A DNA stretch of 32,228 bases from Phycisphaerae bacterium (GTDB lineage Bacteria > Planctomycetota > Phycisphaerae > Sedimentisphaerales > Anaerobacaceae): assembly GCA_018007255.1 (NCBI GenBank), contig JAGOQT010000004.1:1-32228 (forward strand), read 5' to 3'. The position numbers and the translations under genes are program-made. The notes beneath the pieces were generated by a model. It saw nothing but the letters and a program-made list of their open reading frames with translations. It did not search any database and was not told where the DNA came from. Of this stretch, positions 16,886-31,254 are shown one piece after another (positions within the stretch are counted from its first letter, which is position 1; the number at the start of each line of letters is the position of its first letter).

Positions 16886-16923
16886 CTTCGCAGATGCGGC
16901 CGCCACCCCCGGTGCCGCCTGGC

Positions 16924-18480
16924 TCATTCCCACTCGATGGTAGCGGGGGGCTTGCTCGACACGTCGTAGACCACGCGGTTCACGCCGCGGACCTCGTTGA
17001 TGATCCGGCTGGCGATCGTGGCCAGCACCTCGTAGGGGATCCTGGAGAAGTCCGCTGTCATGAAGTCCGTGGTGTCGACCACGCGGAGGGCGATGACGTT
17101 CTCGTAGCTCCGCTCGTCCCCCATGACGCCCACGGTGGACACGGGCATGAGCACGGCCAGGGCCTGCGAGGTCTTGCGATACAGTCCGGCCGCGCGGATC
17201 TCGTCGATCAGGATCTCGTCCGCGGCCCTCAACGTCTCCAGCCTCTGGGGGGTGACCTCGCCGATCACCCGCACGGCCAGGCCCGGACCGGGGAACGGAT
17301 GCCGCCACACGATGTCCTCGGCCAGGCCCAGGTACTCGCCCACGAGCCTGACCTCATCCTTGAACAAGTCCCGCAAGGGCTCGACCAGCTCGAATCCAAG
17401 CTCCGCGGGCAGCCCGCCCACATTGTGGTGGAGCTTGATGTTGGCGGCCGGATTGCCGTCCTTGGACCCGGACTCGATGACGTCCGGATACAGGGTCCCC
17501 TGGGCCAGGAACCGGGCGTCCGGGATCTTGGCTGCCTCCCACTTGAAGGCCTCGATGAACTCCCTGCCGATGATCCGTCTCTTCTGCTGGGGTTCGGTCA
17601 CGCCGGCCAGGGCGTCCAAGAACCGCCTGGACCAGTCCACCACGCGCAGGTCCATGCGGAAGTGGCCGCGGAACGTGGACTCCACCCCATCCCGTTCGTT
17701 CCTGCGGAGCAGGCCGTTGTCCACGAAGATGCAGGTCAACTGGTCCCCCACGGCCCTGTGCACGATCGACGCGGCCACCGCGGAGTCCACACCGCCGCTG
17801 AGCCCGCAGACCACGTGGGCCTTGCCCACTTGGCGGCGGATCCGGTCCACGGACTCGGTCACGAAGTCGCTCATCCGCCAGTCGCCCGTGCATGCGCAGA
17901 TGTCGTACAGGAAGTTCCTGAGGACCACCGCCCCCTTGGGGGTGTGGGCGACCTCGGGGTGGAACTGGACGCCGTAGAACCGCTTGGCCCTGTGCCGCAC
18001 TGCGGCATAGGGGCAGGTCCGTGTTCCGGCCAGGTTGTCGAAGGCCGGGCCCAGGCTCTGGACCTGGTCGCCGTGGCTGGCCCAGACCCGGGTGGTGTCC
18101 GGCATGTGGGCGAACAGGTCTGCCTTGTCCAGGATCGTCAGGTCTGCGCGGCCGTACTCCCTGTGCTGGGCGGGCAGGATGCGGGCCCCCAGGATCTGGC
18201 AGCCCAACTGCATGCCGTAGCAGATCCCCAGGATCGGAACGCCCAGGTCGAACACGGCCGGGTCGCAGAGGGGGGCCCCGGGCTCGTACACGCTGGCAGG
18301 CCCCCCGGACAGGATGATGCCCTTGAGGGGCAGCTTCGACAGCTCCGCGGCGGGTACATCCGCCCTGAACAGGCGGGAGAGGCAGTTGTGCTCGCGGACC
18401 CGCCGTGCAATCAACTGCCCGTACTGGCTGCCGAAGTCCAGGATCGCGATCAACTGATTAGCCATGCCCGAATGCCCCAT
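16924..18480 (-). CDS. guaA: GMP synthase, glutamine-hydrolysing
   Basis: GuaA converts XMP, glutamine and ATP to GMP, the last step of guanine nucleotide synthesis. The N-terminal class I amidotransferase starts [20 protein letters not shown]. Its catalytic Cys87 lies in [11 protein letters not shown], with the His-Glu pair in [13 protein letters not shown]. The ATP-pyrophosphatase domain has the PP-loop [15 protein letters not shown], then the dimerisation domain ending [10 protein letters not shown], the standard C-terminus. Length (518 residues) is normal. ATG 18480 is the first start in frame; ATG 18465 ([12 protein letters not shown]) fits the family at least as well, and neither has a clear ribosome site. 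It follows guaB by 36 bases in the same operon. Confidence 0.97.
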
Positions 18481-18516
18481 CCGGCGGAGCCGGAGACGGA
18501 GGAGGACTCACGCCGC

Positions 18517-19989
18517 CTAGCTCTCGAGGGGTACGGTCCCCGAGTAGTTGGGGGCCTCCCGGGTGATCAGGATGTCGTGTGGGTGGGATTCGCTGACCGA
18601 AGCTGCGCTGATCCGAACGAACCGTGCGTCCCTGCCCAGGGCCTCGATCGTGCGGGTCCCGCAGTAGCCCATGCCCGCGCGCAGCCCGCCGACCAGTTGA
18701 TACACATACTCGCCCAGCGGTCCGCGGTAGGGCACGCGGCCCTCCACGCCCTCGGGGACCAGCTTGCCTGCGTCCGTTGCGCTGCTCTGCCCGTACCGCT
18801 CCGCGGACCCCCGCACCATTGCGCCCAGGGATCCCATGCCGCGGTATTCCTTGAACTGCCGGCCCTTGTAGATGACCAGTTGGCCCGGGCTTTCCTTGAG
18901 GCCCGCGAACAGCGACCCCAGCATCACGCTGGAGGCCCCTGCGGCCAGGGCCTTGGTGATGTCGCCCGAGTGGCGGATGCCCCCGTCCGCGATGACCGGG
19001 ATGTGGTGTTTGGAGGCGACCGCCGCGCAGTCCATGACCGCGGTGACCTGGGGGACCCCCGCCCCGGAGATGATCCGTGTGGTGCAGATCGCGCCGGGCC
19101 CGATGCCGACCTTGACCGCGTCCGCCCCGGCTTGGATGAGGTCCTCGGTCGCCTCCCCGGTGGCGATGTTGCCCGCGATGACCTGGATATCGTGCTTGGC
19201 CTTGACGGCCTTGACGGTCTCGATCACGTTTCGCGAATGGCCGTGCGCGGTGTCCACGACGATGAGATCGACGTCGGCATCCACCAGGGCGGCCACGCGT
19301 TCCTGGTCATGCACGCCCACCGCAGCCCCCACCCTCAGCCTGCCCCGCTCGTCCCTCGCGGCCTTGGGGTACTGCTCGACCCGGTCGATGTCCCGCATGG
19401 TGATCAGTCCGGCCAGCTCGCCATTGGGATGGACCAGCAGGAGTTTCTCGACCTTGCGCTCCTGGAGGATGCCCTTGGCCTGCTCCAGGGTCGTGTCGGC
19501 CGGTCCGGTGACCAGGTTGGTCTTGGTCATCACCGAGCCGATCTTGACATCGTAGTCCTTGAGGAACTTCAGGTCCCTTCGGGTGAGGATCCCCACCAGC
19601 TTCTTGCGCTGGATGATGGGGATGCCGGAGACGTTCTGCTCCTGCATGACCTCGAGCGCCCGCTGCACCGGATCGGTGGGAGAGAGGGTCACCGGGTCCA
19701 GGATGACCCCGTGCTCGGACCGCTTGACCTTGGCGACCTCCCGCCTCTGGGCCTCGATGGACAGGTTCTTGTGGATGATCCCGATCCCGCCCTCCTGGGC
19801 CAGGGCGATGGCCAGCGCGGACTCCGTGACCGTGTCCATGGCCGCGGACACGATGGGGATGTTGATCTTGATCTTCCGGGTCAGGAGGGTGCTCGTGTCC
19901 ACCTCGCCGGGCAGGAAGTCGCTCCTGCCCGGGATCAGGAGGACGTCGTCAAAGGTGATACCCTCTGCCACGATCCTGCGATGGTCCAT
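18517..19989 (-). CDS. guaB: IMP dehydrogenase
   Basis: GuaB oxidises IMP to XMP with NAD and is the first committed step to GMP. The 490-residue protein begins with [17 protein letters not shown]. It carries two CBS repeats in the region from about residue 90 to 205, then the barrel motifs [15 protein letters not shown] and GNIATGEAT. The catalytic loop is [20 protein letters not shown] with Cys302, and the flap region RYGQ is present. The ATG is preceded by AGGAGC (19995-20000 on the plus strand) at five bases. The promoter and leader are short, so no riboswitch is expected. It is transcribed together with guaA and is divergent from the first blaI gene. Confidence 0.97.
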
Positions 19990-20037
19990 CCTTCGCTCCT
20001 ACAATCCTGCACCCCGGCCGGGGGCTGAAGGGGGGCT

Positions 20038-20162: not shown

Positions 20163-20211
20163 TTGACATAAAAGTTACATATGTAACACTAATGAATGTT
20201 ACATCTGTAAC
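20163..20211 (+). promoter_or_regulatory. blaI-blaR1 promoter with two TACA-N2-TGTA operators
   Basis: TTGACA lies at 20163-20168. A perfect palindrome, GTTACATATGTAAC, spans 20174-20187, and a second site, GTTACATCTGTAAC, spans 20198-20211; their centres are 24 bases apart. Both match the TACA-N2-TGTA core known for BlaI/MecI repressors. The -10 is not obvious (ACTAAT at 20188-20193 is the best candidate, with a long spacer). The arrangement predicts self-repression of the following pair. Confidence 0.85.
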
Positions 20212-20228: not shown

Positions 20229-20639
20229 ATGGGCAAGACGCCTCGAATCTCCGAGTCCGAGTGGGAGGTCATGAAGGTCCTGTGGGAGCAATCCCCCCTG
20301 ACCGCCAATGCGATCGTGCAGATCCTGTCCAAGAAGACCCCCTGGCACCGCGAGACCATACGGACCCTGATCCACCGCCTGGTCCAGAAGGGGGCCGTGG
20401 CCTACAAGAAGGAAGGCCGGCAGCACCAGTACTATCCCTGTGTGGGGGAGGCGGAGTGTACCCGCGCAGAGGCCCGGTCCTTCCTAAGGCGGGTCCGCGT
20501 CAGTGCAATCGAGCCCATGCTGGCTGCCTTCGTGGAGGAGCACCGGCTCTCTGAAGAGCAGATCACCCGTCTCAAGCAGATCCTGGACGGCCAGGACCTG
20601 GGCGACAAGGAGGGTAGGGCCAAGAGGCACACACCCTGA
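20229..20639 (+). CDS. BlaI/MecI-family transcriptional repressor
   Basis: The 136-residue protein begins with PRISESEWEVMKVLWEQSPLTANAIVQIL and continues with the recognition helix segment WHRETIRTLIHRLVQKGAVAYKKEGRQHQYYP, the winged helix of the BlaI/MecI/CopY family. The C-terminal part is the helical dimerisation region with the usual proteolysis-sensitive linker. It should bind the two TACA-N2-TGTA sites just upstream as a dimer and repress its own operon. Its induction is likely by the downstream M56 peptidase, as in bla and mec systems. The membrane sensor gene begins 15 bases after its stop. Confidence 0.92.
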   Translation: MGKTPRISESEWEVMKVLWEQSPLTANAIVQILSKKTPWHRETIRTLIHRLVQKGAVAYKKEGRQHQYYPCVGEAECTRAEARSFLRRVRVSAIEPMLAAFVEEHRLSEEQITRLKQILDGQDLGDKEGRAKRHTP

Positions 20640-20654
20640 GCAGATGGGGAGACC

Positions 20655-23627
20655 ATGGAAGCCTTGAGCATGAACCTGACTGCGTTCTGGCCATGGCTGC
20701 TGAAGACCACCCTTCAAGGCAGCCTTCTGGCCGTCCTCATCCTCTTGATCAGGACCATCCTCGGGGACAGGCTCCCGGCCCGCTGGCACTACGGCCTTTG
20801 GCTCGTACTGCTGGTGCGTCTGGCCCTGCCCTGGGCGCCGCAGAGTCGGGTCAGCCTCTACAACCTGATTCCGGGATGGCCTTCTGTGTCCGGCTTGGCT
20901 TGGGACCAACAGGGCGAAGGCCCCCCGCGTGCGGTCCTTCCCATGGCAGGACCTCCAGGGCAGCAGGGCCGGCCGGACCGCCCGTCCGCAGGGGACCAGG
21001 CCGGTGTCATCGAGCCGGCCGAGCGTGGGCCTGCAGGTCCTGCGTCTGCCGGCCCCTTGGCGGGTTCGAATCCGGCCTCCGAAGGGCCGTTCCCAGGCCT
21101 GGGCGATCAGACCGCAAGGACTGGCGCATCGATCATCCGTCTGCTGCCCTGGCTCTGGCTCTTGGGCGCCGCGTTGCTGGCAGGGACCATCTCGATCAGG
21201 AGCTGCAGACTGTGGCGCGCGGTCCGGTCCGAGCGGCCTGTGACCGACCAGCGGATCTTGGATCTCCTGGAGGACTGCAAGATGCAGATGCGGGTCCGGA
21301 CCCTGGTGGCCGTGGTCGTTACGGACAGGGTCCACACACCGGTCCTGTTCGGCTTCTTGCGGCCCCGCATCCTGTTACCGCAGGGCCTGGTCGAGTCCAT
21401 GGACATGGACGACCTCGAGTACGTGTTCCTTCACGAGTTGGCCCACCTCAAGCGCCTGGACATCTACACAGGGTGGCTGGTCTGCCTGGTGCAGGTCCTG
21501 CACTGGTTCAACCCCCTGGTCTGGCTGGCGTTTCGCCGGATGCGGGCAGACCAGGAATCCGCGACGGATGCCCTGGCCCTGCGGGGGTTGAACGCAGGCG
21601 AACCGGTCCGGTACGGCCAAACGATCATGAAATTGCTCGAAGGATTCTCCCAGCGACAATATTTGCCCTCCGTAGCTGGGATCCTTGAGGATACCTCTCA
21701 CATCGAAAGGAGAATTCACATGATTGCCAGATTCAATCACTCTTCACGCAGACCGCTGCTGGCCATGGTGCTCCTGGCCGTTCTGGGGCTGATCACCTTG
21801 ACCGATGCACAGAACAAGTCGCAAGGCGGCGAGCCTGCATCCAGGCCCGAAGAAGAGACGGGCTTAGCGCCGGACAGGAGTGCGCCTGTCGCGCCGCAGG
21901 TGACCGGTGGGTCTGCGACCGAAACGCCCTCTCTCGGCGGGGGACTCGTCGCACGCCGGGTTCTCGCAGACGCCTCCGGCATCGGTGAGGTCTTGACCGC
22001 GGATGGCAAGTACATCAGCAGCAATATGGACCGGAGCACGGGTGACGTGGTCCAGTTCGAAGTTGCCAGCGGACAGAGGACGCGAATCACGAATAGGGGG
22101 CCCTGGACCGAGACTGACAAGTCCTACGAGAACCAAGCGTTCTCACGCGACGGAAAACAAATCGCGTACAACGTCGAAAGTTCCGACCCGAATACGAAGG
22201 CTTGGGTCTTTCAAGTGCGGATTAGAAACCTGGATGGTTCGCGCCTTCGCACGCTCTACAAAGACTGTTACGCCTACCCCTTGGACTGGTCGCCTGACGC
22301 AGGATCCATCCTCGCACTTCGCGATCGTAACAAGGCGACTGAACTGACGGTGATCTCGACGGCGGACGGCTCGGTACGCGTCCTGAGGAGTATTACTTCG
22401 GGCTGGTTCTCGTTTCAAAGGGCCAGTTTCTCGCCCGATGGGCGATTTGTTGCGTTCAGTTTGGTGCGTGAGGGGAACCCACCCAATGGCGACGTCTTAC
22501 TGATGACCGCCGATGGCCGGAATGAGGTCGTTGTTGCCGGGCATCCCGCGGAGGATCGACTGCTTCGATGGACACCGGACGGGAGAAGCCTGGTCTTCCT
22601 CAGCGACCGCTCAGGGACATGGGACATCTGGACCGTCCACATCACCGGGGGGAAGCAGCAAGGGGAACCAGAACTGCTGAAAAAGGACTTCGGCTATGAT
22701 TCAGAGGTTCTTGGCTTTGCACCCGACGGCTCCCTTTATTACAAGACTCAAACGTATTTGGGTTGCCTCTACCACGGTGAGGTCGACCTTGAAACCGGTA
22801 AGATACTCGTGCCACCCGCGCCGGTCACGACGCGGTATACCGGCCCAGTGGCACAGCCAACATGGTCACCCGACGGCAGGAACTTAGCCTATCTTTCACA
22901 CCCGGGTTTCATCGGTCTCGGAAACAACATCCTCACGATCCGGTCGGCCGCCACCGGGGAAGAGCGCTTTCTGTCGCCGCGTCTTCGTTACGTTAACCAG
23001 ATCTGCTGGGCGCCGGACGGCCGTTCCGTCATCGCGGTCGCGATTACGGGGACGGGACTTGGAATCTTCCGAATTGATACTGAAACAAGCGGGATCACTA
23101 AGTTGACAGATGGAGGTTTGGCCCCCCATCTCTGCCCGGATGGGAAGACCCTGGTGTTCGTGAATGGGGAAACAGGGAGGCCGGGGCCAATCATCAGGAA
23201 ACGCAACCTCGACACCGGTGAGGAGTCGGAACTTGTCCTGATAAGGGGAATCATCTACGACCTCTCGCCGGACGGCCGGGAAGTGGTGTTCCAGGTGGGC
23301 GATGCTGTAAAAACCGTGTCCCTCAACGGAGGCCAGCCGCGGGAACTGTTTCGCGGTTTGGCGCAGCGGCACGCCGGGCTGAGTTGGACGAGAGACGGCC
23401 GTTACATCATCGCCGAGGCAACCGGTACCGCGAGCAGTGAAATCTGGCGGGTTCCGGCGCAGGGCGGGACGCCGCTGAAGCTGGACCTCGCCGTTCCCAA
23501 AATGAACGACTTCACGCTTAACCCGGACAACCGCCGCTTTGCGTTCAGCGTCGATGAGGGGTCCAAGAGCGAGCTCTGGGTGATGGAGAACTTCCTGCCG
23601 GCGGGCTCGCCGGTAAGTCCAAAGTAA
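20655..23627 (+). CDS. BlaR1-type M56 sensor peptidase fused to a PD40/TolB-like beta-propeller
   Basis: The 990-residue protein has N-terminal membrane helices (FWPWLLKTTLQGSLLAVLILL, then YGLWLVLLVRLALPWAP). The M56 zinc site is HELAH at 260-264 in YVFLHELAHLKRLDIYTG, with a later glutamate in RADQESATDAL. A last membrane segment is near residues 368-388 (PLLAMVLLAVLGLITL). From about 430 to 985 it carries roughly eleven PD40 repeats, such as FSPDGRFVAFSL, WTPDGRSLVFLSD and WSPDGRNLAYLS. Classical BlaR1 has a penicillin-binding domain in this place, so the ligand should differ. The predicted role is to sense an extracytoplasmic signal and cleave the adjacent repressor. Codon third positions are clearly less GC-rich in the propeller half. 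Confidence 0.88.
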   Translation: MEALSMNLTAFWPWLLKTTLQGSLLAVLILLIRTILGDRLPARWHYGLWLVLLVRLALPWAPQSRVSLYNLIPGWPSVSGLAWDQQGEGPPRAVLPMAGPPGQQGRPDRPSAGDQAGVIEPAERGPAGPASAGPLAGSNPASEGPFPGLGDQTARTGASIIRLLPWLWLLGAALLAGTISIRSCRLWRAVRSERPVTDQRILDLLEDCKMQMRVRTLVAVVVTDRVHTPVLFGFLRPRILLPQGLVESMDMDDLEYVFLHELAHLKRLDIYTGWLVCLVQVLHWFNPLVWLAFRRMRADQESATDALALRGLNAGEPVRYGQTIMKLLEGFSQRQYLPSVAGILEDTSHIERRIHMIARFNHSSRRPLLAMVLLAVLGLITLTDAQNKSQGGEPASRPEEETGLAPDRSAPVAPQVTGGSATETPSLGGGLVARRVLADASGIGEVLTADGKYISSNMDRSTGDVVQFEVASGQRTRITNRGPWTETDKSYENQAFSRDGKQIAYNVESSDPNTKAWVFQVRIRNLDGSRLRTLYKDCYAYPLDWSPDAGSILALRDRNKATELTVISTADGSVRVLRSITSGWFSFQRASFSPDGRFVAFSLVREGNPPNGDVLLMTADGRNEVVVAGHPAEDRLLRWTPDGRSLVFLSDRSGTWDIWTVHITGGKQQGEPELLKKDFGYDSEVLGFAPDGSLYYKTQTYLGCLYHGEVDLETGKILVPPAPVTTRYTGPVAQPTWSPDGRNLAYLSHPGFIGLGNNILTIRSAATGEERFLSPRLRYVNQICWAPDGRSVIAVAITGTGLGIFRIDTETSGITKLTDGGLAPHLCPDGKTLVFVNGETGRPGPIIRKRNLDTGEESELVLIRGIIYDLSPDGREVVFQVGDAVKTVSLNGGQPRELFRGLAQRHAGLSWTRDGRYIIAEATGTASSEIWRVPAQGGTPLKLDLAVPKMNDFTLNPDNRRFAFSVDEGSKSELWVMENFLPAGSPVSPK

Positions 23628-23927
23628 CTGGTATTTGACTCTTTCCAGTCACAGACTGCGTGTGGCATTGCCCTCAGACCGTTCTTTAGGAGATGGATGT
23701 GGAGGAGGCGGTACAAGGGTAGATACAGGGCTGAACGCACCCTAGGGCGGCCAGGCCTCGAGTGAACGGGGAGTGGCCGCCCCTGTTTCATGCCTTGGCA
23801 CACGGTCGCCAGTGCACATCCTAAGGCTTTGTCAAAACAAGGGATAGAGGTAACCCAGTCCGCATAGCCATCTGCCCTCTCGACCTCGGTGGAACTGCAG
23901 ATTCTGATCAAGAAACAGAAAATAATC
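23628..23927. other. Gap between the two blaI-blaR1 pairs, with a hairpin
   Basis: No believable gene is present. GGGCGGCCA (23745-23753) and TGGCCGCCC (23774-23782) form a 9-bp stem with a 20-base loop followed by CTGTTTC. This may be the terminator of the first pair, although the T-tract is weak. Confidence 0.5.
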
Positions 23928-23956
23928 TTGCCTTCTCTAATATAATCGAATATAGT
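23928..23956 (+). promoter_or_regulatory. Promoter of the second blaI-blaR1 pair with overlapping palindrome
   Basis: TTGCCT (23928-23933), 17 bases, TATAGT (23951-23956). The near-palindrome TATAATCGAATATA (23941-23954, 12 of 14 positions symmetrical) covers the spacer and the -10 box. It differs from the TACA-N2-TGTA type upstream of the first pair. A strong AAAGGAG at 23972-23978 precedes the ATG. Confidence 0.7.
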
Positions 23957-23986
23957 CACCACAAATAGAACAAAGGAGACGCTGGC

Positions 23987-24403
23987 ATGGCCACATCGAA
24001 GACAACACGGGGGCGGAGAAGGAAGAAGACCACGGACCTGACCGAGGCGGAGTGGGAGATCCTGAAGGTCGTGTGGAAGGAGGAGCCCTGTGCAGCCGGG
24101 ACCGTTCAGGAGGCCTTGGCCCAGAGCAAGGACTGGGCCTATGCCACGGTCAAGTCCACCATGGACCGCATGGTGGAGAAGGGCTTCCTGGAGATCACGC
24201 GGATCCGCAACCTGCAGTTGTTCAGGTCATCCATAAGCCAGGTGGATGCCAAGAGGGGGGAGCTCAGGAAGCTGCTCAGGCGGGCCTTTGACGGGGCGCT
24301 CACACCCATGGTGCAGTTCCTGATCGAGCACGAAGGCCTCTCCAAGGAAGAGGCGTCCGGTCTTCGCAGGCTCGTGAACAAGTCCGACGGCAAGAAGGGC
24401 TGA
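23987..24403 (+). CDS. BlaI/MecI-family transcriptional repressor (second copy)
   Basis: This 138-residue protein has a basic N-terminus (TTRGRRRKKTT), then the winged helix: LTEAEWEILKVVWKEEPCAAGTVQEAL and WAYATVKSTMDRMVEKGFLEI. The recognition helix differs from the first BlaI (ATVKSTMDRM against ETIRTLIHRL), which agrees with the different palindrome upstream. The C-terminal helices (LRKLLRRAFDGALTPMVQFLIE) are the dimerisation part. The start has AAAGGAG at eight bases. The matching sensor gene follows after 17 bases. It is a diverged paralogue of the 20229 gene rather than a recent duplicate. Confidence 0.92.
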   Translation: MATSKTTRGRRRKKTTDLTEAEWEILKVVWKEEPCAAGTVQEALAQSKDWAYATVKSTMDRMVEKGFLEITRIRNLQLFRSSISQVDAKRGELRKLLRRAFDGALTPMVQFLIEHEGLSKEEASGLRRLVNKSDGKKG

Positions 24404-24420
24404 GTTGAGACCATGAGGGA

Positions 24421-27400
24421 ATGGGAGACCCCACTATGAACCCGCTCATCGATGCCTGCATAGGCGGCCTGAATGCGGCCGGCCGCGTGTTCTACGGCTA
24501 CGCCGCTGCGGTTTCCGTCCAGTGCGCCATCCTGGTAGTCGTGCTGTTCGCGGCGGACCTGTTCCTGCGGAGCTGGGTGCGTGCGGTGGTTCGGTACTGC
24601 ATTTGGCTGCTCGTGCTTGTGAAACTGGTCTTGCCTCCGACACTTGCCCTGCCCACGGGGATAGGGTATTGGGTGGGCGCCCGGCTCCCCGGTGCCGGGC
24701 CCCATCTAGGCGTTTCCTCTCCGGCCGTCCTTGAGGCTGAGGGCCGGCCCGGCCTCGCGGAACCGCCCATGGCAAGAGAGGCCGCCCCCAGGGGGCCTTC
24801 CTCCGGACAGGAGACGGCCTCAGTCTCGCTCGAACGTGTGTCTCCTGGGGTGACCCGGCTCACGTTGCCGGGGATTGTCTTCCTGCTCTGGCTTGTGGGC
24901 GTCCTTGCGTTTGCCGCCCTGCTCGTCCAACGCCTGAGGTTTGTCAGGGGGCTGATGGCCTTCAGCAGCCCAACCGATCCGCGTTTCCAGCAGATCATGG
25001 AAGATTGCGGCAGGCTGCTCGGCATCCGCCGGGAGATCGAGCTGCGGGCCTCAGGGACGATGTCGAGTCCTGCCGTGTGCGGACTCCTGAGACCCGTCGT
25101 GCTGGTCCCGGCCAGGATCCTCGAGACGGTCTCACAGGACGGACTCAGGGCGATCCTCATCCACGAGCTGGCCCACATGCGGCGGGGCGACCTGTGGGTC
25201 AACACCTTGCAGACCCTGCTCCAGGTCATCCACTTCTACAACCCCTTTGTGTGGCTGGCCAATGCCGTGATCCGCAGGACCCGCGAGGAGGCCGTGGACG
25301 AGACGGTCCTGGTGGCCCTCGGCGGGCGGGCTCGGGACTACAGCACCACCCTCATCGACATCGGCGAGATGGCCCTGTGGAGGGCCGATCTCGGTCTGCG
25401 CCTGATCGGCGTTGCAGAATCAGAGAGGATCTTGCGCTGGAGGATCAAACACATGTTGACGCGACCGATACCAACGAGTGCGAGGGTGGGTCTTGTGGGG
25501 TTCCTGGCCCTGGTCGTCATGGCGGCGATCCTGCTGCCCATGGCCTGTGTCGAGAGGTCTGGGCCGGGCGCAGACCTGACGACCCAGGCAGGGGCAGAGA
25601 GAACGCAGGCGAGTTCACTGTCAGAGAGCAGGGAGGTGGGTCTTGGCGGGGACGGCAACGTGTTCGTGGACCCGAACACCGGGGTCCGGTTCACGCAGTT
25701 CAAGACCCTGGCCGGGCCCTATGACGTTAAGCAACCGGGGTTTCTTTGTGTCTCACCGAGTGGAAGGTTCCTGCTTGACCTCGTGCGTGTGATCCCGCTG
25801 GATGGCCGCGAGCCCTTCGATCTGGTGGACATGCCCGGCGCGGGTAACCAAGGATCTCTGTCGCCTGATGGCCGAAAGGTGGTCTTCTTCTGTGACTACG
25901 CCTTGTGGTGGATCGAGATCGATCCGGACACCGGGCGGCCGGCGGGTTCGCCTCGGAAACTCCTAGACAAGCAGATGTCTGCTATACGCGGCTGGTCCCA
26001 CGACTCCCGGAGGATCATGTTCGTTAGGACAGACAGGCAGCCTGGTGACGCGCGTGTACGGAGCTGGTGGACCCTCAGCCTAGAGGGCGGCGAACCTTCC
26101 CCCCTGACGGATCCATACAGTTTTGGCCTCCTGTCGCCCGACGGCAAGTCAGTGGCCTTTGAAGCGAGGGCATCCACGGACGGTTATTCGCGTGCTTCCT
26201 CCGCCTCCCTCCTCGTGAGACCGGTAGCTGGTGGAGAGGCCAAGAAGGTCCTTGATGGCGGACCCAACATGTCTCCCGTGGCCTGGTCAAGCGATAGCGA
26301 ATGGCTGGTATCGAGCGCCTGGGGAGGTCTCGAGTTCATTCGCATCGCGGACGGACGCCATGTGCAGGTGACCACGCCGGGCAATCTGATTGGCGGGCGT
26401 CGACTTGGAGAGAAGTTGCTTTTCTACGAGGATTCCTACCAGAGCACGATCTCGGTGAAACTGCTTTCTGTCGCCGGCGGTGCACCTGCGACCATTGGAT
26501 GGCCCAGCCTTTCCTTCCGTGGAGGGCCCGGCAATCCCTGGTGGGCCCAAGACTCGCGCAGCATCGTGATAGAGGGCACGCGAGGAGAAGACCAGTGGGG
26601 CCTTTGGGTCGTTCCCCTGGATGGGAAGGACCCCAGGCCGCTGGCGATCGACACCCCGCTGTGTCGAAACGCGCAGATTAGGCTTCTCTCTCCTGACGGC
26701 AGCCACCTCCTGCTCGTCACGGGGGAACAAGAGGGCGATTGGGACCTTTGGACGGTGCCCATATCCCTGACGCAGATGAGGTCCACCGGCCCTGCGGTCA
26801 GGATCTTCGGGGGGATGGTTCCACCGGTCCGCACATGGCAGGCAGTTCAGGATGGCTGGTCGCCGGATGGGAGCAAGATTGTTTTCGTCCACAACTGGGA
26901 TATCTGGGTGGCCGGCACCGACGGCAAGAACGTCCTGCAACTGACGAAAACGCCCGAAAAGGAGGGACTGCCCATCTGGTCGCCGGACGGCAAGATGATT
27001 GTCTTCCGCACTCAGCCTTCGGGCTCGACGCAGGTTGGCGCCGAGACAATACACCTGCGGCTTCACGTTGTGCCAGCCTCCGGAGGCGAAGCAAGGGTGA
27101 TCGCGGATCTTCCACGCGCCGCTGGGGTTGGTTTCTCGCGATACACATGGTTCCCCGATGGCAAAGAAGTAACAGTAGCCTGCGGAGAAGACGGAATCAT
27201 CGCCAACTTCCCGATTGCCGGCGGCGATCGCAGAACGGTGGTGCGCCTCAAGGACGCGGGGATAGACCTTGCAGGCTGGCCAAGATGGTCGCCGGATGGT
27301 CGTCTCCTCGCCTTTCAGGGTGAGAGCCCCAGGGACAGCAAGTTCTATGTCTACCAGGTGGATAACGCCAATCTGCAGCCTTTGAGCGACAACTATGCCC

Positions 27401-27528
27401 CTCCCTTCTACTGGTCGCCCGACAGCAAATGGATCTGTTATTACACCCGAGAGACCGTCAAGACCCGTCCCGAGGGCGTCCTGTGGGAGATGGACGTGGA
27501 CGAGGCGGTGGCCAAGTTGGCCGAGTGA
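24421..27528 (+). CDS. BlaR1-type M56 sensor peptidase fused to a PD40/TolB-like beta-propeller (second copy)
   Basis: This 1035-residue protein has the same plan as the 20655 gene. Membrane helices come first (AAAVSVQCAILVVVLFAADLF, CIWLLVLVKLVLP). Then comes HELAH at 248-252 in ILIHELAHMRRGDLWVN with a later REEAVDETVL, and a final membrane segment, VGLVGFLALVVMAAILLPMAC. About twelve PD40 repeats follow, among them LSPDGRKVVFFC, LSPDGKSVAFEA, WSPDGSKIVFVH and WSPDGRLLAFQG. ATG 24436 (MNPLIDAC) is an equally plausible start, with GGGAG upstream. The end of the last helix, LLPMAC, resembles a lipobox but lies too far inside the protein to act as one. It is expected to sense an outside ligand and inactivate the second repressor; the ligand is unknown. 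Confidence 0.88.
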   Translation: MGDPTMNPLIDACIGGLNAAGRVFYGYAAAVSVQCAILVVVLFAADLFLRSWVRAVVRYCIWLLVLVKLVLPPTLALPTGIGYWVGARLPGAGPHLGVSSPAVLEAEGRPGLAEPPMAREAAPRGPSSGQETASVSLERVSPGVTRLTLPGIVFLLWLVGVLAFAALLVQRLRFVRGLMAFSSPTDPRFQQIMEDCGRLLGIRREIELRASGTMSSPAVCGLLRPVVLVPARILETVSQDGLRAILIHELAHMRRGDLWVNTLQTLLQVIHFYNPFVWLANAVIRRTREEAVDETVLVALGGRARDYSTTLIDIGEMALWRADLGLRLIGVAESERILRWRIKHMLTRPIPTSARVGLVGFLALVVMAAILLPMACVERSGPGADLTTQAGAERTQASSLSESREVGLGGDGNVFVDPNTGVRFTQFKTLAGPYDVKQPGFLCVSPSGRFLLDLVRVIPLDGREPFDLVDMPGAGNQGSLSPDGRKVVFFCDYALWWIEIDPDTGRPAGSPRKLLDKQMSAIRGWSHDSRRIMFVRTDRQPGDARVRSWWTLSLEGGEPSPLTDPYSFGLLSPDGKSVAFEARASTDGYSRASSASLLVRPVAGGEAKKVLDGGPNMSPVAWSSDSEWLVSSAWGGLEFIRIADGRHVQVTTPGNLIGGRRLGEKLLFYEDSYQSTISVKLLSVAGGAPATIGWPSLSFRGGPGNPWWAQDSRSIVIEGTRGEDQWGLWVVPLDGKDPRPLAIDTPLCRNAQIRLLSPDGSHLLLVTGEQEGDWDLWTVPISLTQMRSTGPAVRIFGGMVPPVRTWQAVQDGWSPDGSKIVFVHNWDIWVAGTDGKNVLQLTKTPEKEGLPIWSPDGKMIVFRTQPSGSTQVGAETIHLRLHVVPASGGEARVIADLPRAAGVGFSRYTWFPDGKEVTVACGEDGIIANFPIAGGDRRTVVRLKDAGIDLAGWPRWSPDGRLLAFQGESPRDSKFYVYQVDNANLQPLSDNYAPPFYWSPDSKWICYYTRETVKTRPEGVLWEMDVDEAVAKLAE

Positions 27529-27906: not shown

Positions 27907-30900
27907 ATGAAAGGTCGAAGCTGCTTGCCTGTCTCCGTTCTTTGTCTGCTTGTCGCCTCGGCAGTATCCCAAGGGGCCTCCTTGGTCAGCAGCGACAACA
28001 TCTACTTCGGCCATTTTCACAATCATACCGAGCTTTCAGGCGCTACCGGGACGCCCGCGCAGGCCTACAGCGCCGCTAGATCGGCGGGGCTGGATTTCTT
28101 TGGACTGTCGGATCATGGTGAGGCATTGACCACGGATGAATTCGTGGCCATGCAGACTGCAGCGGATGCCTCGAATGCGGCGGGTGCCTTCAGCGCCTTC
28201 TGGGGATTCGAATGGAGCTCCAGCAAGTACGGCCATATCACGGTCGTCCACCCTGCTACCTTTGCCTCGGCTGGCAACGCCTCAACGGATACGTTCAGCG
28301 AGTTCATGAGCTGGCTGGGCGCCCAGGGCGCCGTGGCGTTCTTCAACCACCCTGGGCGTCAGAACGGGGCCGGAACCGAATTCGAGCATTTTACCGGCGC
28401 ATACTCGGACAACATTGTCGGGATGGAACTGTGGAACAAGGGCGATTCCTTCGGCACCTACTACTACAACGAAGGGTATACCAGCGACACCAGAGATCGG
28501 TCCGGCCACTATGACGAGGCGCTGCTTGAGGGCTGGCAGATCGGCGCTGCCGGATCGCGAGACAACCACGACGGCACTTGGGGCAGTGGCAGTTATCGAC
28601 TGGCCATTCTGGCCGGCTCCAATACCCGCGGCGACCTCTACAGCGCACTGTGGGCAAGACGTTTCTACTCGACGCTCGATCAGGATCTGGAGCTGTCGTT
28701 CAGGGTCAACGGGAGCGAGATGGGCTCGACGATCGCAGGGGGTATAAGTCAGTGCGTGATAGAAGCCGCCGACCGGGGCAATGAAGGCTTCTCCCGGATC
28801 GAGGTGATCCACAACGGTTATATCGTCTATACACAGAGTGTGGCCGGCCAGACGCATCCCCTCGTCACCTGCGACCTGTTCGCACAGCAGGGCGACACCC
28901 TCTACTGCAAGGTCACCCAGAGCGATGGCGACGAGGCAATTTCCTCGCCTGTCTTCATTACGAGCAACGGCCCCGACGGTCCTCCGCGTTCCGCTCTGAC
29001 GGCTCCGCTGGACAACGGGCCGGACGATCTTGAGCCGGCGAGTGGTCAGGTGACCGTCAATATGACCCAGCCCGCTTTTCAGATACAGCTAAGCGACCTT
29101 GAAGGTGTCAACGACAGCACGGTCACGTCAGCCGCTGTTTCAGTAGCAGGCCTGACACTGGGTGCGGACTACACCTTCGCGTACAATGGCAGCACAGATG
29201 TCATTACTCTTGCGCCTCTGTCAGACGGTTTCTTCGGAAACGGTACATACGCCATCACACTGAGCGGTATCAGCGACGTGGCCGGCTACACGATGACGGC
29301 AAAGACCCTCACCATCCTGATCGACACCTCCATCGTAGTCCCGCAGACGCTTCGCTTCCAGGAGGGTGTTGACGGCTATTCCGGCACGGTTGACACCATG
29401 ATATGTGCTGGAACATCGGACACCTCCTACGGAGACAGTACCAGCCTCAACGTCGATACTTCCGATACATACGGCGGAGCTTCTCAGGTCTTGCTGCGAT
29501 TTGACAGCATCACCGGTGGTGCCGCCGACCAGATTCCGCCGTACGCCAGCATCAGCTCCGCAACGCTGCGGCTCAGGTCCCTGGACACGGGAAATGGAGG
29601 CTCGCTGCATGCCATGCTGCAGCCCTGGTCCGATGTGTCCACATGGAATTCGCTGGTCAATGGCATTCTGGCGGATGATGTGGAGTCCTCGTCCGCTGCA
29701 GAGGATAGCATTAGTGCCAACATCGTTGGCGATGTGGACCTGGATGTGACGGCCACGGTGCAGGGGTGGGTCGACGGGACCATACAGAACAACGGGTGGG
29801 CCGTGCTGCCCAACGGTACGGACGGGTGGCATATCGCGTCCGCCGAGCACGGCACCACAGGCTACCGCCCCGAGCTGAGTGTCACCTTCGTGGAGAGCGA
29901 GGCCATGGACACTGCTCACAACCCCTCGCCCGCAAACGGCGCGTCGGCTGTCCCGATGAGCGTGTCTTTACAGTGGACCCCAGGTACCGGGGCGCTGTGC
30001 CACGATGTCTACCTTTGGACAGGAGGCACGCCCGTCCTCGTATCGGGACGCCAGCCAGGCACAACGTACGCACCGCCACAGCCGCTGGCAGGCGAGACCG
30101 CCTACTCTTGGCGGATCGATGAGTACTATCGTACGGATCCCGGCGAGATTCCCGTGATGGGTGACGTGTGGACCTTCACGACCGGACCTGCCACGGTGGT
30201 GAGTAGGGCAGTCAGCGAATCGCCGGTCAAGGGAGTGGTCGGCGGCACCTACGCCCATACGCACTCCAGTGACGACGTGTATGAAACGATCACCGAAGTC
30301 CCCAGTGCCCCGAACAAGAACGCCTACAGCATGCTGGAGCACGTCTGGCGATTTGACGTGGCGGCGGGGACCTACATTGAGTTCTCCATTGAGGCCAGTC
30401 GGTCTGCAAGCTCGGACGGCGACAACTTCGAGTTCTCCTACTCCACGGATGGCACGACGTACCATACCCTGCTGACGGTGGCGAGCACGATGGATACCGT
30501 GCAGAGCTCCGTTCTTCCCTCCGGCACCGCCGGCACCGTGTACGTCAAGGCGACCGACACCAACCACGCCAGGGGATACGCGAATGCGGATGTCCTGTCC
30601 ATTGACTTCATGTGCATCATCAGCTCCCAGGTCCCGATTCCCCAACCGCCCGTGGCCAACGCTGGACCGGATCAGACTGTGGCCGACAGTGACAAAGACG
30701 GTGTTGAAAGCTTGACCTTGAACGGCTCCGGCTCCGACCCCGAGGGCTCTGAGGTCACGTTCCAGTGGTCTGTCGACGGCGACATGATCCTAGGTGCTAC
30801 CGATGCATCGCTCGTGTATGGATTCACCCCTGGAACCCACACCGCCACACTCGAGGTCACCGATGGGGATGGCCTGATCGGTTCTGATGATGCGACCATC

Positions 30901-31254
30901 ATCGTCCAGGCGGCGGGAGCCAGCATGCATGTCGCTGGCCTCGATGGGGTTGCGAGCGTCAAAGGCAGCAGTGGCCAGTGGACTGCGCGGGTCACCGTGA
31001 CAGTCGCCGATCAGGCCGGAGCCCCTGTCTCAGGGGCAACCGTGACCGGTGCCTGGGGCGGGGCGGCGAGCGGTGACGGTACGGGCGTGACCGGCAGTGA
31101 CGGGACCGTCACCATCAGCAGCAGCAACATGAGGAGCGGCGCCTCGGTGACGTTTACGGTGAACCACATCGCGCACAGCAGTCTCACGTATCAGCCGGCC
31201 GACAACATCGAGACGTCCATTACTGTGACGTACGCTTCTGCGGCTAAGCCGTAG
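27907..31254 (+). CDS. Secreted PHP-domain metallohydrolase (CehA/McbA-like) with adhesin-type beta domains
   Basis: The 1115-residue protein has a signal peptide (about residues 1-24). The PHP domain follows at about 30-350, with metal ligands in GHFHNHTELS (H36, H38, H40), GLSDHGE (H70), FFNHPG (H148) and SRDNHDG (D219, H221). Then come an Ig-like domain (about 360-475) and a DNRLRE-type domain (about 480-660) with YGGASQVLLRFDS, DVDLDVTATVQGWVDG and RPELSVTF. A Fib3/Fn3-like part (NPSPANGASAVPMSVSLQW), a PKD-type domain (VANAGPDQTVADSDKDG) and a C-terminal Ig/Big-like domain complete the chain. No PEP-CTERM or other anchor is visible. It probably hydrolyses an extracellular phosphoester or similar bond; the substrate is unknown. 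GGGGAAGG precedes the ATG. Confidence 0.87.
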   Translation: MKGRSCLPVSVLCLLVASAVSQGASLVSSDNIYFGHFHNHTELSGATGTPAQAYSAARSAGLDFFGLSDHGEALTTDEFVAMQTAADASNAAGAFSAFWGFEWSSSKYGHITVVHPATFASAGNASTDTFSEFMSWLGAQGAVAFFNHPGRQNGAGTEFEHFTGAYSDNIVGMELWNKGDSFGTYYYNEGYTSDTRDRSGHYDEALLEGWQIGAAGSRDNHDGTWGSGSYRLAILAGSNTRGDLYSALWARRFYSTLDQDLELSFRVNGSEMGSTIAGGISQCVIEAADRGNEGFSRIEVIHNGYIVYTQSVAGQTHPLVTCDLFAQQGDTLYCKVTQSDGDEAISSPVFITSNGPDGPPRSALTAPLDNGPDDLEPASGQVTVNMTQPAFQIQLSDLEGVNDSTVTSAAVSVAGLTLGADYTFAYNGSTDVITLAPLSDGFFGNGTYAITLSGISDVAGYTMTAKTLTILIDTSIVVPQTLRFQEGVDGYSGTVDTMICAGTSDTSYGDSTSLNVDTSDTYGGASQVLLRFDSITGGAADQIPPYASISSATLRLRSLDTGNGGSLHAMLQPWSDVSTWNSLVNGILADDVESSSAAEDSISANIVGDVDLDVTATVQGWVDGTIQNNGWAVLPNGTDGWHIASAEHGTTGYRPELSVTFVESEAMDTAHNPSPANGASAVPMSVSLQWTPGTGALCHDVYLWTGGTPVLVSGRQPGTTYAPPQPLAGETAYSWRIDEYYRTDPGEIPVMGDVWTFTTGPATVVSRAVSESPVKGVVGGTYAHTHSSDDVYETITEVPSAPNKNAYSMLEHVWRFDVAAGTYIEFSIEASRSASSDGDNFEFSYSTDGTTYHTLLTVASTMDTVQSSVLPSGTAGTVYVKATDTNHARGYANADVLSIDFMCIISSQVPIPQPPVANAGPDQTVADSDKDGVESLTLNGSGSDPEGSEVTFQWSVDGDMILGATDASLVYGFTPGTHTATLEVTDGDGLIGSDDATIIVQAAGASMHVAGLDGVASVKGSSGQWTARVTVTVADQAGAPVSGATVTGAWGGAASGDGTGVTGSDGTVTISSSNMRSGASVTFTVNHIAHSSLTYQPADNIETSITVTYASAAKP

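Follow-up and report, generated by a model that had tools for sequence, protein, structure and literature searches.

The window, a stretch of 32,228 nucleotides from a Phycisphaerae bacterium (contig JAGOQT010000004.1), carries on its forward strand two adjacent gene pairs, each encoding a BlaI-type repressor followed by a membrane-bound sensor. The first pair consists of blaI1 (20229..20639), whose product is a BlaI/MecI-type repressor of 136 residues, and the gene for sensor 1 (20655-23627; 990 residues); the second consists of blaI2 (23987..24403; 138 residues) and the gene for sensor 2 (24421-27528; 1035 residues). All four genes are intact (window 20229-23627 and 23987-27528), and their coordinates agree exactly with those of a first-pass annotation of this DNA. 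Both repressors exceed the Pfam Penicillinase_R cut-off of 22.6 bits, with scores of 121.6 bits (E 2.7e-35) for BlaI1 and 95.1 bits (E 4.5e-27) for BlaI2, and BlaI1 can be aligned over its full length with the MecI and BlaI structures. Each sensor is composed of an M56 membrane metalloprotease part and a propeller tail. The M56 part of sensor 1 (residues 1-386; 20655..21812) contains its HEXXH motif at residues 260-264 and its last transmembrane (TM) segment at about residues 367-385, and is followed by a tail of type T1 (21813..23627) that comprises a linker and then tandem propellers (about residues 430-980), the second half being TolB-like, and that terminates in ELWVMENFLP. The corresponding part of sensor 2 (residues 1-375; 24421..25545) harbors the HEXXH motif at residues 248-252 and the last TM at about residues 359-377; its tail, of type T2 (25546..27528), contains tandem propellers at about residues 414-1025, the second of which spans about residues 685-1013.

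Matches to Peptidase_M56 (E 1.2e-61 and 3.2e-45 for sensors 1 and 2) and to PD40 (PF07676; E 2.6e-22 and 2e-23) lie above the curated Pfam cut-offs in both proteins, and the same scan returned no penicillin-binding family match in either sensor, bearing out the earlier proposal that a propeller takes the place of the penicillin-binding sensor in a BlaI/M56 relay. Both proteins fall below the NCBIfam blaR1_generic cut-off (199.5 and 114 bits versus 400) and below that of the TolB equivalog TIGR02800 (119.2 and 60.7 bits versus 343), and no beta-lactamase gene was found adjoining either pair. Downstream of sensor 2 (27907-31254) lies the gene for a large secreted protein of 1115 residues with PKD and Big_1-like domains and a putative PHP-type metal-dependent domain at its start. 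On the other side, a plus-strand reading frame of 1044 residues (16894-20028) is antisense to guaB, the IMP dehydrogenase gene (18517-19989, minus strand), and is a spurious high-GC frame.

The source genome (3.98 Mb in 457 contigs, 87% complete) contains six BlaI genes, each adjoined by an M56 gene, and M56 is present in 46 of 61 relatives. A PD40 match was obtained for 19 of the 43 M56 tails examined; the other tails carry many different domains, and Laminin_G_3 occurs in 4 of the 43. M56-propeller fusions are found in many other genomes and assemblies from related Planctomycetota, which rules out that the propeller was joined to M56 by an assembly error. The annotation had also noted that no effector gene follows either sensor, and our comparison of 54 M56 genes revealed no conserved same-direction gene 3' of them. 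A recurring downstream reading frame was considered as an effector family and rejected, as it overlaps the convergent hisA on the opposite strand and looks spurious.

The S. aureus BlaR1 residues H201, H205, D210, E242, D246, Y261 and R294 (PMC9834060) correspond, without gaps and at an offset of 59, to sensor 1 positions 260, 264, 269, 301, 305, 320 and 353. They are essentially invariant in the alignment, where 66-68 M56 rows span these positions (one has K at 301), and all seven BlaR1 catalytic residues are kept in the M56 part. At the position of the autocleavage loop (G342-I343) a hydrophobic P1' residue is present in nearly all rows; the loop is disordered in the model. In the repressors, the BlaI P1' residue Phe102 aligns with F101 of BlaI1. 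BlaI2 reads QFL in the alignment, with Leu at P1' and Phe one residue earlier, and the other BlaI proteins of its clade (clade II, below) likewise have Leu at this position and Phe one residue before it.

AlphaFold models of sensors 1 and 2 have mean pLDDT values of 73.9 and 76.4, with the propeller blocks mostly at 80-95, and in these models each tail forms a tandem pair of beta-propellers, which in sensor 1 are TolB-like; the 11-12 PD40 repeats first counted per sensor are consistent with this arrangement. The best structural match of the second sensor 1 propeller is between residues 699-970 and the TolB-like structure 2ojh (Z 26.6, rmsd 2.7 over 253 residues). The entire tail can also be superimposed at Z ~20 on LRP6 and other tandem propellers, with a large rmsd that indicates a different domain arrangement. 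In sensor 2, residues 674-1013 match the propellers of S9 peptidases at Z 22.4 and many unrelated propellers at Z ~20, and oligogalacturonate lyases match the second propeller at Z 22.2. Because the scores are near-equal for many propellers, the fold does not reveal the ligand, and a glycan-specific fold for sensor 2 was discarded as non-discriminating, the S9 peptidase propellers scoring alike.

Both tail types occur in other signalling systems. In Ser/Thr kinases (L240, L242, L243, L246) T1 comes after the one TM; it is also fused to a TM-bearing anti-sigma-like N-terminus behind an ECF gene (L252) and exists in secreted forms (L233, L235, L237-L239); in one relative a secreted T1 protein that is 83% identical to the sensor 1 tail adjoins its own M56-T1 receptor. 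T2 is also found in proteins made up of a signal peptide, TPR repeats and T2, encoded directly 3' of an anti-sigma-type gene (L194) or behind an ECF sigma gene and an anti-sigma-type gene (L196, L207). The anti-sigma-type proteins beside T2 (L194, L196, L207) and T1 (L235) share 69-74% identity in their C-terminal part, and T1 and T2 thus have a partner in common; among these four the anti-sigma-type label has Pfam support in L194 alone (zf-HC2). Kinase and anti-sigma parts act in the cytoplasm, and the propellers beyond their TM segments must therefore, by prediction, be extracytoplasmic. The basic residues that precede the last TM in both window sensors likewise predict a tail on the outside, against the concern that the propeller might be cytoplasmic. 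The occurrence of T1 and T2 with kinases, anti-sigma partners and signal peptides supports an input role, and the propeller resembles a mobile sensor of some signal from outside the cell.

Sensors 1 and 2 share 22% identity over the full proteins. On the M56 tree, which was built by a quick method rather than a careful search, sensor 1 falls in a clade of 38 rows (clade I) and sensor 2 in one of 24 rows (clade II), both on starred branches. The two pairs are thus not duplicates of each other; they belong to two old M56 clades with differing operators, and a recent tandem duplication is ruled out by this separation. The first-pass description of two diverged copies side by side holds as regards their divergence, with the correction that they are not recent paralogues of each other. 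The tails do not follow the M56 tree, on which the T2 label needs at least six changes and T1 at least five. T2 tails are found on M56 parts of both clades (on clade I in L058 and L198), L061 and L085 are M56-T1-T1 proteins, and L206 (G025) encodes M56, T1 and T2 in a single open frame, its T2 being 72% identical to the sensor 2 tail. The last of these bears both propellers on one receptor, and the idea that the window's two sensors read two signals is not established. In several relatives BlaI-M56 systems share a slot between mnmG-radical SAM and hisA, which, depending on the relative, holds T1, T2, fused T1-T2 or a triple array; in UBA2218 (L086, L201) the three tandem pairs carry T1T1, T2 and T2, in the same order as in the window. 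As far as the sequences tell, T1 and T2 are movable cassettes exchanged between chassis, and tandem pairs have likely recombined and fused their tails. Among 198 genomes sampled across the class, none but the source genome gave a full-length M56-T1 match at E 1e-30; a scan of genome contigs gave one full-length match, from a Planctomycetota MAG whose kinship is unplaced (L088). The radical SAM protein that adjoins mnmG lies just 5' of the BlaI-M56 genes in L234 (10070-11221), L249 (3430-4470), L206, L200, L060 and L086.

Two TACA/TGTA dyads precede blaI1, GTTACATATGTAAC at 20174..20187 and GTTACATCTGTAAC at 20198..20211, 24 bp from the first, and the dyad positions are kept before blaI in relatives. 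A putative -35-like hexamer, TTGACA, lies at 20163..20168 on the plus strand, with no good -10 at 15-19 nt. The source genome contains two GTTACAnnTGTAAC operators, both at the pair 1 promoter, and a search for GTTACANNTGTAAC with at most one mismatch gave two matches in this 87% complete genome, both at blaI1, where ~0.06 would be expected. In 12 genomes that encode such systems there are 24 exact RTTACANNTGTAAY sites, of which 21 lie just 5' of blaI and three within reading frames; the reversed control gave eight matches in the same genomes. A relaxed operator pattern and its control gave seven matches each. The sole promoter-like relaxed match in the source genome is a single ATTACAACTGTAAA, at chance level, ~30 bp 5' of a subtilase-like reading frame (L260 5951-5962). 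With the operator at its own promoter alone and nearly all RTTACANNTGTAAY sites before blaI, no unlinked pair 1 targets were found in the source genome or the 12 genomes, and the suggestion that the regulated targets may lie elsewhere is unsupported for pair 1. Pair 1, at least, is predicted to be autoregulated.

The region before blaI2 lacks a TACA/TGTA dyad. Most clade II blaI genes are preceded, at one position, by dyads resembling ATTYGA-N6-TCRAAT, and at that position pair 2 shows a degenerate form, TCTCTA-N6-TCGAAT (23934..23951), which we regard as a tentative candidate operator, its score of 15/18 being by itself at chance level. With one mismatch this pattern has 10 matches in the source genome and is too loose to call targets. 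Operator type goes with the chassis rather than with the tail, since L058 and L198 combine T2 tails with operator I. A subclade (L045, L067, L076, L081, L082) has TCTACANNTGTAGA-like operators 5' of blaI instead.

On this mostly comparative basis we consider it probable that the locus encodes two BlaI/BlaR1-type receptor-protease circuits in which tandem beta-propeller cassettes stand in for the usual sensor. On the outer side of the membrane, the propeller would bind a ligand or partner, and this binding would activate the cytoplasm-facing M56 zinc protease, which in turn would cleave BlaI within its dimerisation half. Release of BlaI from the operator would then derepress the blaI-sensor operon and raise the level of the receptor, so that output would be set by the chassis (M56, BlaI and operator) and input by the tail. 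The architecture, catalytic residues, pair 1 operators with their absence elsewhere, tail exchange and extracytoplasmic context of the tails are read from sequence. Against this reading stand the degenerate pair 2 operator, the Leu at P1' in clade II BlaI proteins, model mean pLDDT values of only 74-76 and the quick tree. A more specific version is doubtful, namely a receptor-only circuit in which the pair 1 BlaI regulon is its own receptor operon, receptor induction is itself the response, and the T1 and T2 cassettes, which pass between the M56/BlaI receptors, anti-sigma systems, Ser/Thr kinases and secreted proteins of one planctomycete family, all sense a single kind of envelope signal.

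The same receptors might instead control a true regulon whose promoters are unlinked and carry operators that are weaker or of another kind, a possibility that we take seriously while leaning against it. Some known BlaI/MecI systems also regulate resistance genes beyond themselves (PMC9834060), the genome is incomplete, the loose pair 2 pattern leaves room for targets and the relaxed site before the subtilase-like frame could be one; however, GTTACANNTGTAAC-like sites are confined to blaI1, the RTTACANNTGTAAY sites of the 12 genomes cluster before blaI or fall within reading frames, the relaxed pattern is no commoner than its control and no conserved same-direction gene follows the sensors. 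The apparent lack of another pair 1 target, together with the secreted T1 protein beside an M56-T1 receptor and the discussion of BlaR1 cleavage by signal peptidase (PMC9834060), could also mean that the propeller is itself the effector, such that induction increases the supply of propeller, which signal peptidase might release, to bind a periplasmic partner, with sensing secondary. This seems unlikely to us, as sensing better explains why tails form the input end of kinases and lie beside anti-sigma factors.

That T1 and T2 recognise glycans, such as plant or algal polysaccharide fragments, we judge rather improbable. The oligogalacturonate lyase match of sensor 2 and the Laminin_G_3 tails point this way, as does a C-terminal extension of ~220 residues after the T2 propellers of some relatives (L044, L080, L200, L201), which in L044 weakly resembles 3-keto-disaccharide hydrolase or GH59 lectin domains. 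That resemblance is below the Pfam cut-off, though, and the extension is absent from the window's sensor 2, whose propeller matches S9 peptidases and many unrelated proteins about as well; sensor 1 is closest to TolB, which binds proteins. TolB-like propellers act at the Pal/peptidoglycan interface, and this and the BlaR1-like chassis would suit a disguised beta-lactam or cell-wall sensor functionally near BlaR1. Such a role is very improbable given the missing penicillin-binding domain, blaR1_generic scores far below the cut-off and the lack of a beta-lactamase gene beside the pairs. The system works like BlaI/BlaR1, yet with the defining sensor domain absent and the family score not reached it does not count as a BlaR1 beta-lactam sensor.

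The propeller circuits resemble BlaI/BlaR1 and MecI/MecR1 of Staphylococcus and Bacillus in several respects: a winged-helix repressor adjoins a gluzincin receptor of the M56 family, the HEXXH and EXXXD residues are present, pair 1 has TACA/TGTA operators, and the sensor is C-terminal, past the last TM. They differ in that the sensor is a tandem beta-propeller, there is no beta-lactamase or PBP target and the pair 1 operator lies at its own promoter only. Planctomycetota Ser/Thr kinases with C-terminal periplasmic WD40/TPR arrays are already known (PMC11032199); they share the layout of a cytoplasmic signalling domain, one TM and an outside repeat propeller, and T1 itself occurs in kinases of this layout in relatives, whereas the output here is repressor removal by a protease. 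TolB shares the PD40 propeller and is the best structural match of the second propeller of sensor 1, but the window sensors are membrane-tethered, have two propellers and score below the TolB family cut-off. ECF sigma/anti-sigma pairs in relatives have the same T1 or T2 propellers encoded directly behind them, with different output machinery; the window has the M56/BlaI version.

To our knowledge, BlaI/BlaR1 is known almost solely from beta-lactam resistance. A literature search retrieved no paper naming both PD40 and BlaR1 or both Peptidase_M56 and PD40, and nothing relevant on M56/BlaI plus a propeller. The BlaI/BlaR1 protease relay would here serve as a general chassis for receptors whose sensors can be exchanged, and a single sensor cassette appears common to several unrelated signalling systems, which offers a direct handle on the ligand, since any chassis, or the secreted form, could be used as bait. 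Elsewhere in the source genome (L046 457-7406), another M56 protein, highly divergent, has a tail of 1825 residues and its own BlaI.
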